The notes below the pieces were generated by a model. The model was not told the origin of the DNA. It did no database searches and worked only from the letters and a program-made list of their open reading frames with translations. From IMG/VR virus record IMGVR_UViG_3300025112_000113, positions 1 to 30,080 of that record: DNA of 30,080 nucleotides. One strand, given 5' to 3'. Positions 20,148-23,559 of this stretch are shown here, one piece after another. The position numbers and the translations under genes are program-made. How positions within the stretch are numbered: position 1 is the stretch's first letter; each line of letters begins with the position of its first letter. The stretch comes from a virus.

Positions 20148-20192
20148 ATTGTTTAGGCTAGTATAGTACAAGTGCCAAACAATGGAGATAAC

Positions 20193-20690
20193 ATGGAGCC
20201 GAATGCAGCGGAATGGGTAGATATTGAGGACCTGGTTCCTTGGACAGAGAATCCGAGGGACAATGACCACGCAGTGGATGAAGTTGCCAAGAGCCTTGAA
20301 CGATTTGGCTGGGGTGCCGTTATCATCGCTCGCCGTGAGAATGGGAGGGTTATTGCTGGGCATACAAGGCTTAAGGCAGCAATCAAACTTGGGCATGAGA
20401 AGGTTCCTGTTAGGTTTGTGGACATCACGGAACATGAATCGAGGGCATTGGCTTTAGCGGATAATCGATTGGGTGAACTTGCCAACTGGTCACAGGATCT
20501 ATCCAAAATCCTATCGGAATTAGATAAGGACGAGGTGAACTTGGACGGACTGGGTTGGTCCCTTGTTGAGTTGGAAAAGCTCATGGTGGAGAATGAACCG
20601 GCAGCCCAATTTGAGGAATTCAATGAGGACATAGGAACGGACCATAGATGCCCAAAGTGTAACTATGAGTGGTCTGGAGCCTCCTCATGA
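20193..20690 (+). CDS. ParB/sulfiredoxin-like domain protein with C-terminal CxxC
   Basis: A 165-residue protein with the ParB/Srx fold: NPR near residue 22, the phosphate-binding AGHTRLKAA (about 69-77) and LADNRLGELA (about 94-103). Members bind DNA, use CTP or cut DNA, and phage versions often sit beside DNA methyltransferases. The C-terminus ends with CPKCNYEW, half of a zinc ribbon, so it may bind metal as a dimer or with a partner. ATG 20193 has GGAG six bases before it; a GTG at 20172 is the longer option. It opens the operon and its stop overlaps the chorismate mutase start (ATGA). It may guide or regulate DNA modification, which is inference. Confidence 0.8.
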   Translation: MEPNAAEWVDIEDLVPWTENPRDNDHAVDEVAKSLERFGWGAVIIARRENGRVIAGHTRLKAAIKLGHEKVPVRFVDITEHESRALALADNRLGELANWSQDLSKILSELDKDEVNLDGLGWSLVELEKLMVENEPAAQFEEFNEDIGTDHRCPKCNYEWSGASS

Positions 20691-20989
20691 TTGCCAACAA
20701 CCCAAGAGTCCCTAGAATTGCCAAGGACTTTTTCAGAAAAGAGGTCGAGGACCTTCGTAAGATGATAAGCAGGCAGGATGACGAAATATCCATGGCCCTT
20801 CTTCGGAGATCCAAGCTTGTTCATAAAATGCAGAAACTGAAACAGGATTTCCAAGTGGACATGCGGGACCCATCCAGAGAGGAAGAGGTCTTAAAAAGGG
20901 TGGATGCTGGATTATACGGCGAAGAGGTAGCCCGTAAGATTTGGACAGTTCTTTTCGAGCATTCTAGGTTTGATGAACCAGAGGGATAA
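20687..20989 (+). CDS. chorismate mutase (AroQ, type II), stand-alone
   Basis: A 100-residue all-helical enzyme that converts chorismate to prephenate. The E. coli P-protein mutase active-site residues line up: Arg24 (Ec Arg11), Arg41 (Arg28), Lys52 (Lys39), Asp61 (Asp48), Arg64 and Glu65 (Arg51, Glu52) in RDPSREEEVL, and Ser93 (Ser84). Spacings match except for a four-residue shorter loop before the last helix. Ec Gln88 is Glu97 here; yeast mutase has Glu at this place too, with a more acidic pH optimum. ATG 20687 overlaps the previous stop, with GGAG at 20675. A phage seldom needs Phe/Tyr synthesis, so the reason is probably prephenate for the CmoA-like enzyme three genes on. Confidence 0.87.
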   Translation: MIANNPRVPRIAKDFFRKEVEDLRKMISRQDDEISMALLRRSKLVHKMQKLKQDFQVDMRDPSREEEVLKRVDAGLYGEEVARKIWTVLFEHSRFDEPEG

Positions 20990-22020
20990 TGGAGAAACCT
21001 CCATATAGAATTCCAGACATGAAGGAAATAGCGGCGATCCCATGGAATGGGATAAACGTGGTTTCCACGTTTTCGGGATGCGGTGGATCGTGCTTGGGAT
21101 ACAGGATTGCGGGATGCAAGGTTGTATGGGCCTCTGAATTTGTTCCAGCCGCGGCAGAGGTTTATAAATTGAATCACCCAAATTCCCATTTGGACACTAG
21201 GGACATCAGGGAAGTAGAGTCTTCCGATATTTTACGGGATGCAGGTATCCCAAAAGGTTCTGTGGATATTTTAGACGGAAGTCCTCCGTGCTCTTCCTTT
21301 AGCTTGGCGTCCGCAGGAAAGAGAACAAAGGATTGGGGAAAAGTAAAAAAGTATAGCGACACCAAACAGAGGACGGATGACCTTTTTTTCGAGTACACCC
21401 GAATCCTTGACGGGTTGCAACCCCGTGCGTTCGTAGCCGAAAACGTTCCTGCCCTTATAAGAGGAAAAGCCAAAGGATATTTTAAGCAGATAATTGGAGA
21501 GTTGAAAGATTGCGGTTACAAGGTTTCCGCAGCGATTATAAATGCTGGAAGACTAGGAGTTCCACAGGCTCGCCAAAGATTGATTTTTGTAGGGTTTAGG
21601 AATGATTTGGGGTTGAGCCCAGTTTTTCCACGTCCCGATAGCTGGGGTTATACGATAGGAGAATCCTTGAAGGGCCTTGATACCTCTGTCCAGTGCATTC
21701 GGTTTACCGGAAGAGGATGGGGAGTCGGCGCTCCTATTTATACGCCAAGTTTCCAGTCACCAACCGTTACCACTATGGGATTTTTTAGCGATGTTTACAA
21801 AGTGGATCGTCCAAGTTCCATTAACTGCTTTTCGGAAAATCAGAAAAACTCCGATAGGCTAACCATACATGAATTAAAAAGGCTCTGTTCCTTTCCAGAT
21901 GATTTTGAGCTTTCCGGTTCATATGAGCAGAGATGGGAAAGGCTTGGGCGCGCCGTACCTCCAATGATGATGAGTCGGATAGCCTCAACCATTGCGGAGA
22001 AATTAAATGCCAAGCGATGA
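20989..22020 (+). CDS. cytosine-C5 DNA methyltransferase family, predicted carboxymethyltransferase
   Basis: A 343-residue C5-cytosine methyltransferase. Motif I is STFSGCGG (26-33), motif IV GSPPCSSFS with nucleophile Cys101, motif VI ENV (151-153), motif VIII QARQR (193-197), motif IX RLTIHELKRLCSFPDDF (290-306) and motif X LGRAVPP (319-325). The target-recognition region (about 205-285) is short. The oddity is Arg321: the family has a nearly invariant Asn (GN[AS]V) there, close to the methyl donor. A Lys at the equivalent place of an engineered CpG methyltransferase has been reported to allow carboxy-SAM use. With a CmoA-like gene in the same operon, I infer transfer of a carboxymethyl group to cytosine. 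The target site is unknown. TAATG overlap upstream, 14-base overlap downstream. Confidence 0.88.
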   Translation: MEKPPYRIPDMKEIAAIPWNGINVVSTFSGCGGSCLGYRIAGCKVVWASEFVPAAAEVYKLNHPNSHLDTRDIREVESSDILRDAGIPKGSVDILDGSPPCSSFSLASAGKRTKDWGKVKKYSDTKQRTDDLFFEYTRILDGLQPRAFVAENVPALIRGKAKGYFKQIIGELKDCGYKVSAAIINAGRLGVPQARQRLIFVGFRNDLGLSPVFPRPDSWGYTIGESLKGLDTSVQCIRFTGRGWGVGAPIYTPSFQSPTVTTMGFFSDVYKVDRPSSINCFSENQKNSDRLTIHELKRLCSFPDDFELSGSYEQRWERLGRAVPPMMMSRIASTIAEKLNAKR

Positions 22021-22855
22021 CCATCTAACGGAAGGAATAAGGAGAGTCCTTATCGAGGAAGTGGAGAAGATAGATGGAAGGATTGCCGTTCTTCTATCTG
22101 GTGGAGTTGATTCCCATACACTGCTTGGTGCAGCAATAGCAGCAAAAAAAAATCCTCTTTGCCTTACATTTGCCTTAGAGGGTGTCAACTCAATGGACCA
22201 AAGGGAGGCAAGGAGGACCGCAAAGGCCTGTGGTCTGGAGTGCCGGGTTACCATCCTTCCTCGATCCATAGATATTTTACAAGAGGACGTTTCGGAATTA
22301 GTAAAGGTGTTTGGTCTTAGGAAAAAATCCGACATTGAATGCTCATGGCCCATAGTTAGGACAATTAGAGAATTGGAACCAGGGTTTACCGTACTCATTG
22401 GGTACAATGCGGAGAGATACTTTGGTCTTGGTAGAAAGAGGGAGATAACCTACAGGGACCAAGTTGACCCCGAACCAATAAATCTTTGCAGGAGAGAATT
22501 ATTCCTAAAGGGTTCCCCTCAAATAAGATGCGTTAGGAAAGTTGCCGCATCTAAGGAATGCCAAATAAGCGTTCCATACAGGGACCGATCTCCGGACCTG
22601 CTGGACCTATTTAACGGATTCAACTTCAAGGACATGAATTCCCCCAAACAGAAAAAACATGCGCGCCTTGCATTCAAGAAGGAAATCCCAAGAATTGTAA
22701 ACCTACTCCCACATACAAACCTTCAGCTTGGTGACTCAGGTATAGCCAAACATTTCCGTTCGTTAATAGATACGAATTGGAACGTTGGAGGGTGGAGGTC
22801 ACCAGTTGGAATTTATAACGCATTGGCAAACAACAGGATAGGAGTGGAGCAATGA
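22007..22855 (+). CDS. asparagine-synthetase-like ATP-dependent amide synthetase (no glutaminase domain)
   Basis: A 282-residue PP-loop enzyme matching the C-terminal synthetase domain of AsnB: LLSGGVDSHTLL at 29-40 (pyrophosphate loop SGGVDS 31-36), FALEGVNSMDQREARRTA (55-72) as the AsnB-type second strand, VLIGYNAERYFGLG (129-142) in place of the AsnB SGEGADE.FGG segment, and ISVPYRDRSPDLLDLF (187-202) for VPFLDH. The family adenylates a carboxylate and attaches an amine. The N-terminal Cys-type glutaminase is missing, so it must use free ammonia or another donor. In this operon the likely carboxylate is carboxymethylcytosine in DNA, giving the amide. This substrate is inference. A small-molecule substrate is possible. 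It overlaps both neighbours (ATGA at 22852). Confidence 0.8.
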   Translation: MPSDDHLTEGIRRVLIEEVEKIDGRIAVLLSGGVDSHTLLGAAIAAKKNPLCLTFALEGVNSMDQREARRTAKACGLECRVTILPRSIDILQEDVSELVKVFGLRKKSDIECSWPIVRTIRELEPGFTVLIGYNAERYFGLGRKREITYRDQVDPEPINLCRRELFLKGSPQIRCVRKVAASKECQISVPYRDRSPDLLDLFNGFNFKDMNSPKQKKHARLAFKKEIPRIVNLLPHTNLQLGDSGIAKHFRSLIDTNWNVGGWRSPVGIYNALANNRIGVEQ

Positions 22856-23559
22856 ACCAAGACATGGTTATCCCTGATGGAAAATGGGAATTCAATGATG
22901 AGGTCACAAAGGTTTTCGACGACATGTTAAAACGCTCCATTCCTCAATACGAGGTAATGAGGGAAGCAGTTACGGATTTGGCCCAACAGTATGCGGTACC
23001 ACAAACCGATATAGTTGACCTTGGGTGTTCCAGAGGAGAAGGAATTTCCAGACTGATAGATTACCTTCCATTCAACACCTTTGTTGGCGTTGAGATTTCC
23101 GAGCCAATGAGGAAATCCTGTATAGATAGGTTTTCCGATAGATTGCCTGCCAGTAAGGTAAGAATCCTTAATCTGGACCTTCGCCATCGGTACCCGGCGT
23201 GTTCCGCATCCGTTACGTTGGCGGTCCTAACTATACAATTCACGCCAATCGAATACAGGCAGCAAATCCTAAAAAACATTTATGACCATACGGAGAAGGG
23301 CGGAGCCCTTATTGTGGTTGAGAAGGTTTTAGGCGGATGCAATGAAATAAACGAATTGCTGGTGGACCAATACTATTCAATGAAAAACAGGAACGGATAC
23401 ACCCATGACCAGATAGACCGGAAAAGGCTATCTCTCGAAGGTGTATTGGTTCCTGTTACCGCCAAATGGAACGAGGAAATGTTGCAGTCGGCGGGGTTTA
23501 GTCGGGTGGAATGTTTTTGGAGGTGGATGAACTTCGCTGGTTGGGTTGCCTTAAAGTGA
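22852..23559 (+). CDS. cmoA-like: CmoA-like carboxy-S-adenosylmethionine synthase
   Basis: A 235-residue class I SAM enzyme that closely follows E. coli CmoA along its length: GKWEFNDEVTKVFDDMLKRSIPQY (split by me at residues 10-33), SAM-binding DLGCSRG (56-62), FVGVEISEPM (77-86), TIQFTPIEYRQQIL (127-140), EKGGALIVVEK (148-158), NGYTHDQIDRKR (181-192) and WRWMNFAGWVALK at the end. Arg192 aligns with CmoA Arg199, a residue reported to hold the carboxylate. CmoA makes carboxy-SAM and phenylpyruvate from SAM and prephenate. In bacteria its partner CmoB modifies tRNA wobble uridine; no CmoB is present here, and the likely user is the DNA methyltransferase. Last gene of the operon; it converges with and overlaps by nine bases a minus-strand gene. 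Confidence 0.9.
   Translation: MNQDMVIPDGKWEFNDEVTKVFDDMLKRSIPQYEVMREAVTDLAQQYAVPQTDIVDLGCSRGEGISRLIDYLPFNTFVGVEISEPMRKSCIDRFSDRLPASKVRILNLDLRHRYPACSASVTLAVLTIQFTPIEYRQQILKNIYDHTEKGGALIVVEKVLGGCNEINELLVDQYYSMKNRNGYTHDQIDRKRLSLEGVLVPVTAKWNEEMLQSAGFSRVECFWRWMNFAGWVALK

Follow-up and report, generated by a model that had tools for sequence, protein, structure and literature searches.

We asked what an asparagine synthetase-like ligase is doing in a cluster of DNA-modification genes of a virus. The ligase is encoded in the window (the whole stretch of DNA that was analysed, 30,080 nt, IMG/VR record IMGVR_UViG_3300025112_000113), which also encodes a portal, a capsid, a DnaB helicase, a Sak4-like protein and RusA; the host replicon of the ligase is a tailed phage. 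An earlier note had described the gene as an AsnB synthetase domain without its Cys2 glutaminase domain, placed it in a DNA-modification operon, and proposed that it amidates carboxymethylcytosine in DNA. The gene belongs to a unit of five genes with overlapping ends, all on the plus strand: ParBc, chorismate mutase, CmoX, ligase and CmoA (Table 1). The chorismate mutase ATG overlaps the ParBc stop, the chorismate mutase stop overlaps the CmoX ATG and the CmoA ATG overlaps the ligase stop; the chorismate mutase gene sits two positions upstream of the ligase gene. The window has a near twin, IMGVR_UViG_3300025141_009520 (99.85% identity across 9,454 bases), and the synteny around the ligase is kept across dozens of viral contigs. 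The ParBc gene scored 25 bits with Pfam ParB_N, under the cut-off of 26.3; ParBc genes occur in many CmoX contexts (PMC12783734).

Table 1. Predicted features of the five-gene unit, in window coordinates
Feature	Position	Strand	Basis
ParBc-domain protein, first in the overlapping unit	20172..20690	+	PHROG ParB-like families, best 1.5e-39
AroQ-type chorismate mutase, 100 aa	20687..20989	+	Pfam CM_2 PF01817
CmoX, DNA cytosine-C5 carboxymethyltransferase homologue	20989..22020	+	Pfam DNA_methylase, PDB 8yf3
CmoX Arg321 codon	21949..21951	+	Column of SpCmoX Arg350
Putative CmoY-type ATP-dependent amide ligase, 282 aa	22007..22855	+	Homology, fold, context
Ligase PP-loop SGGVDS, residues 31-36	22097..22114	+	S31, G33, D35 and S36 invariant in 33 homologues
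Ligase Lys216 codon	22652..22654	+	Aligned with AsnB Lys449 / beta-lactam synthetase Lys443; invariant in 33 homologues
CmoA, carboxy-SAM synthase homologue	22852..23559	+	TIGR00740, E. coli CmoA 4gek

The guess of the earlier note is largely correct and has, in outline, already been published for a homologue. Yang et al. 2025 (PMC12783734) reported that 5-carboxymethylcytosine (5cxmC) in the DNA of Synechococcus phage S-B43 is made by CmoA, which produces carboxy-SAM (Cx-SAM) from SAM and prephenate, together with SpCmoX, an enzyme that modifies DNA cytosines at C5 with a carboxymethyl group and requires a Cx-SAM-binding arginine, Arg350. CmoY of this phage is an AsnB-like ligase that joins glycine to 5cxmC, and the native phage DNA contains the glycyl base; ligases with a glutaminase domain occur in related contexts and are predicted to use ammonia (PMC12783734). 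The carboxymethylation and amide-ligation chemistry has been shown for the S-B43 homologues only, and the transfer from Cx-SAM at GC sites for SpCmoX only (PMC12783734).

The partners of the ligase in the window correspond to this cassette. CmoX matched Pfam DNA_methylase (2e-53) and found SpCmoX (8yf3) as its closest PDB match (1.5e-62); it carries the SPPC motif (Cys101) and, at the column of SpCmoX Arg350, Arg321, where M.HhaI has Asn304. Within the loci fetched by CmoX similarity, from which these counts were drawn, methyltransferases of the Arg type had CmoA nearby in 8/8 bacterial-genome contigs and 85/91 viral contigs, contig ends being an explanation that may hold for some of the six viral exceptions; the Asn/Met type had CmoA nearby in none of 68 cases in bacterial genomes. 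The Arg type tracks CmoA, so that its presence points to a Cx-SAM partner; both occur in the window. CmoA reached 160 bits with TIGR00740 (6e-47), under the equivalog cut-off of 193, and matched E. coli CmoA (4gek) over its full length (1.8e-28), with Arg192 aligned to E. coli Arg199. The proposed DNA-modification operon is thus borne out by its match to the S-B43 cassette and by the diagnostic residues, and carboxymethylcytosine as the carboxylate substrate agrees with the S-B43 precedent and with CmoX Arg321 and CmoA Arg192.

Some observations on these partners extend beyond the window. PHROG 4752 is named 'tRNA methyltransferase', and its members in cassettes such as this one (window 22852-23559) are likelier carboxy-SAM synthases. 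Two tandem CmoX copies lie between ligase and CmoA in locus L226 (3902-6165), with similar arrangements in L217, L221, L229, L231, L234, L235, L238 and L242; the copies perhaps represent two sequence specificities. Arg-type CmoX together with CmoA was also seen in six bacterial genome contigs (L252, L253, L254, L255, L256 and L259), from Brasilonema, a Scytonema plasmid, Telluribacter, Hymenobacter, Spirosoma and Endozoicomonas, where prophage, plasmid or host use is possible.

The ligase itself scored 21.5 bits with Pfam Asn_synthase (PF00733; cut-off 21), a margin that is small because the family has diverged, and was matched nearly end to end by PHROG 26038 ('unknown function'; 1.4e-39). 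Homologues spanning at least 80% of its length were found in 45 phage records, and none in bacterial genome contigs or in plasmids; together with the synteny kept across viral contigs, this makes the gene more than a chance occurrence. The PP-loop lies about 30 residues in, the structural model begins at the synthetase domain and no GATase domain was matched by Pfam, which confirms the earlier description of the gene. The stop-to-stop reading frame opens at 22007, with an in-frame stop (22004-22006) just before the ATG; an in-frame N-terminal extension, and with it an overlooked glutaminase, is therefore ruled out.

A search of the ligase sequence alone against PDB sequences gave no match, and the fold was compared by means of an AlphaFold2 model (alignment of 33 homologues, mean pLDDT 93). 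The model resembles beta-lactam synthetase best (VIA-align Z 23.8, rmsd 3.3 over 259 residues), the alignment starting at residue 216 of that enzyme; further matches were human asparagine synthetase (Z 22.6), carbapenam synthetase (22.2) and AsnB (19.7), then TsnB9 (17.0) and the remaining families (Z ≤ 11.6). QueC, LarE and the PP-loop thiolation families were rejected as the function of the ligase: all fell under their cut-offs, LarE matching partially with Z of about 11 versus about 24. AsnB and the beta-lactam and carbapenam synthetases have the fold, the ATP-pyrophosphatase motif and the catalytic lysine in common with the window ligase, which differs from them in having neither an N-terminal glutaminase nor a pseudo-glutaminase domain, in its low identity (14-20% in structural alignments) and in its DNA-modification context. 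Lys216 aligns with the catalytic lysines of AsnB (Lys449) and beta-lactam synthetase (Lys443). Tyr133 aligns with beta-lactam synthetase Tyr348, which in that enzyme helps to activate the attacking amine; the AsnB Glu348 motif (SGEGSDE) is absent, and IGYNAER stands in its place.

Compared directly with SpCmoY (QDH50619.1), the window ligase showed 31% identity over 82% of its length (tblastn, 4e-24) and about 30% over the whole. Both are stand-alone AsnB-type synthetase domains of about 270-280 aa, adjacent to CmoA and CmoX, and both have the PP-loop, the catalytic lysine (K216) and the K107, E111, C112, R162, H236, N238 and Q240 motifs; R174, N211 and P213 are likewise common to the window ligase and the glycine-ligating clade. 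The differences are one extra Asp after the QLG motif, the residue at position 133 (Tyr, against Ile in SpCmoY and its S-B43 clade and Glu in AsnB and the glutaminase-bearing phage ligase), the gene order (CmoA-CmoY-CmoX in S-B43, CmoX-CmoY-CmoA in the window) and the position in the ligase tree, where the window ligase stands alone on a long branch, apart from the S-B43 clade. In Streptomyces phage TurkishDelight, whose CmoX is 61% identical to that of the window across the first 227 residues, the ligase likewise lies between CmoX and CmoA but carries GATase_6/GATase_7; glutaminase-bearing ligases of this kind keep the AsnB GEGSDE motif, whereas the window ligase has GYNAER.

With a probability of roughly 0.85, we read the ligase as a stand-alone CmoY-type enzyme that would perform amide ligation on 5cxmC in DNA, much as the earlier note had supposed in calling it an amide synthetase acting on DNA; the S-B43 CmoY precedent and the conserved residues argue for this. 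From the observed gene content, order, overlaps, fold and diagnostic residues we infer the activities, the donor and the shielding as follows: chorismate mutase would convert host chorismate to prephenate, which CmoA would use with SAM to form carboxy-SAM; CmoX would put the carboxymethyl group on cytosine C5 of the phage DNA, giving 5cxmC; the ligase would adenylate the 5cxmC carboxylate with ATP and couple an amine to it; and the bulky product would shield the phage DNA against restriction enzymes.

The contrary reading of the gene is that its product acts on tRNA or on a free metabolite such as aspartate and has nothing to do with DNA modification. The AsnB and beta-lactam synthetase relatives that share PF00733 use small molecules, host CmoA serves tRNA modification, and in Salmonella phage Sen-NF (L007, 3875-5398) a ligase homologue lies beside a 2OG-Fe(II) oxygenase gene with no CmoA or CmoX nearby, so that its carboxylate substrate may be made in a different way. 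Against such a role, the ligase gene overlaps both CmoX and CmoA in a neighbourhood that is kept in many viral contigs, no CmoB-type tRNA partner was seen among the neighbours, CmoX being a DNA C5-methyltransferase, and a homologue has proven activity on DNA (PMC12783734); we consider it very improbable.

If the ligase acts on 5cxmC in DNA, the amine donor has to be weighed, and here the reading is less settled. The earlier note had ammonia as the default donor and allowed for other amines, and it is the latter that the glycine ligation by S-B43 CmoY favours. AsnB-family synthetase domains use ammonia, and the TurkishDelight relative at the same gene position, having a glutaminase, probably does so too (PMC12783734), in which case the product would be neutral 5-carbamoylmethylcytosine; the window ligase, however, has neither a glutaminase nor the GEGSDE motif kept by the glutaminase type, and the sole tested stand-alone relative uses glycine (PMC12783734). 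We infer an amino acid as the more probable donor, ammonia being unlikely, which puts the proposed loss of negative charge in doubt: the carboxylate of glycine itself would keep the charge, and with an amino acid as donor the shielding would then come from bulk. For an alpha-amino acid, with glycine as the first candidate, we see an even chance. Another amine, whether a different amino acid, a polyamine or an aminosugar, is a real if lesser possibility. In its favour, the window ligase has a long branch to itself, apart from the clade that ligates glycine, and Tyr at position 133 where that clade has Ile; for other clusters, other donors are predicted by Yang et al. (PMC12783734); and in Erwinia phage pEa_SNUABM_1 (L009, 2033-4870) a DUF1611 gene and an alanine-racemase-N gene lie between CmoA and ligase, which makes a D-amino acid, or one altered in some other way, a possible donor in that phage. 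Against a non-glycine amine stands the core, R174 included, that the window ligase has in common with the S-B43 clade; R174, H236, N238 and Q240 are candidates for residues that would bind the glycine. Given the identity of about 30% and the long branch, the donor and even the acceptor could have shifted.

The chorismate mutase gene sets the unit apart from S-B43, in which a search with PF01817 found none. The window gene scored 42.1 bits with PF01817 (cut-off 27) and matched the PDB chorismate mutase 2d8d (8e-6); its scores with the NCBIfam chorismate mutase models fell under their cut-offs. Across the catalytic part no gap was needed to align it with E. coli PheA, and 6/6 compared residues are kept (window R24, R41, K52, D61, R64 and E65 for PheA R11, R28, K39, D48, R51 and E52), residues with catalytic roles in PheA and other AroQ enzymes. 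A single-sequence model of modest confidence (70) suggests a long helix with shorter ones after it, which is the AroQ pattern; a fold search with this model retrieved chorismate mutases at weak E-values (0.1-0.5) and counts for no more than this helix pattern. The gene thus has the catalytic residues and three-helix pattern of AroQ chorismate mutases (PF01817), from which it differs in being small, stand-alone, phage-borne and within a DNA-modification operon. PHROG 10027 ('unknown function') matches the gene and is therefore possibly chorismate-mutase-like.

Of the 191 records behind the loci that were searched with PF01817, five exceeded the cut-off, namely those of the window and of its twin and three further viral contigs that have CmoA and diverged chorismate mutases (L185, 4261-4509; L195, 4766-5026; L208, 4672-4935, the last with Phe at the equivalent of PheA Glu52). 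Just below cut-off (26.3 bits) was a distant copy in Yersinia phage fHe-Yen9-02, a phage with both CmoA and a ligase. A tblastn search of phages with the window chorismate mutase gave no match. Two other leads were dropped: in Burkholderia phage AH2 the name 'chorismate mutase' is an artefact attached to an integrase match, and the chorismate mutase matches in MT837090, MT839634 and MT836175 (L336, L337 and L338) have housekeeping neighbours and no Cmo genes, and were not counted because these 'Bacteriophage sp.' records look like bacterial DNA.

In all four lineages above cut-off the chorismate mutase lies directly upstream of CmoX, and on the CmoX tree these lineages correspond to four label changes, three of them forced by well-supported branches. 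This suggests that chorismate mutase was captured recurrently as a prephenate supply, with repeated loss as the alternative, and we consider it probable that the enzyme supplies prephenate to CmoA. That it is a coincidental metabolic gene redirecting host aromatic amino acid synthesis would fit with the varied metabolic genes that phages carry and with most CmoA phages being without it, but appears improbable in view of its constant place upstream of CmoX and of the small chorismate mutases of T4-like phages, which adjoin a gene of the U32 family, a family linked to pyrimidine hydroxylation that depends on prephenate. As it occurs in few lineages, the prephenate-supplying enzyme would be an optional extra that boosts the pathway, perhaps in hosts poor in prephenate. 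Yang et al. state that prephenate availability needs study and do not mention chorismate mutase (PMC12783734), and the open-access literature that was searched held no report linking phages, chorismate mutase and DNA modification.

The T4-like arrangement can be seen in Enterobacter phage Entb_45 (L339, 4832-6935), where U32-family, chorismate mutase (40.9 bits) and thymidylate-synthase-like genes overlap in a row, and in Pectobacterium phage PM2 (L341), which has a similar order and a PF01817 match. TrhP and RlhA, both U32 proteins, hydroxylate pyrimidines in RNA and require prephenate to do so (PMC6599085), and a prephenate-dependent hydroxylation of DNA with its own prephenate supply is possible in these two phages. 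As a lead only, this suggests a general rule: where a base-modifying enzyme depends on prephenate, phages would acquire a chorismate mutase.

What is new in this operon is the pairing of a chorismate mutase with the CmoA/CmoX/CmoY cassette, the ligase being a diverged member of the published CmoY kind. More tentatively, chorismate mutase may have been captured repeatedly upstream of CmoX, the branch of the window ligase may use a non-glycine donor and so make an undescribed DNA base, and the U32 genes of the T4-like phages may be a parallel. The ligase adds a new branch to a class of DNA hypermodification described only very recently, which makes it a candidate source of a new DNA base and a candidate new DNA-labelling enzyme, and the chorismate mutase bears on the source of prephenate for genome-wide carboxymethylation, a question left open by Yang et al.
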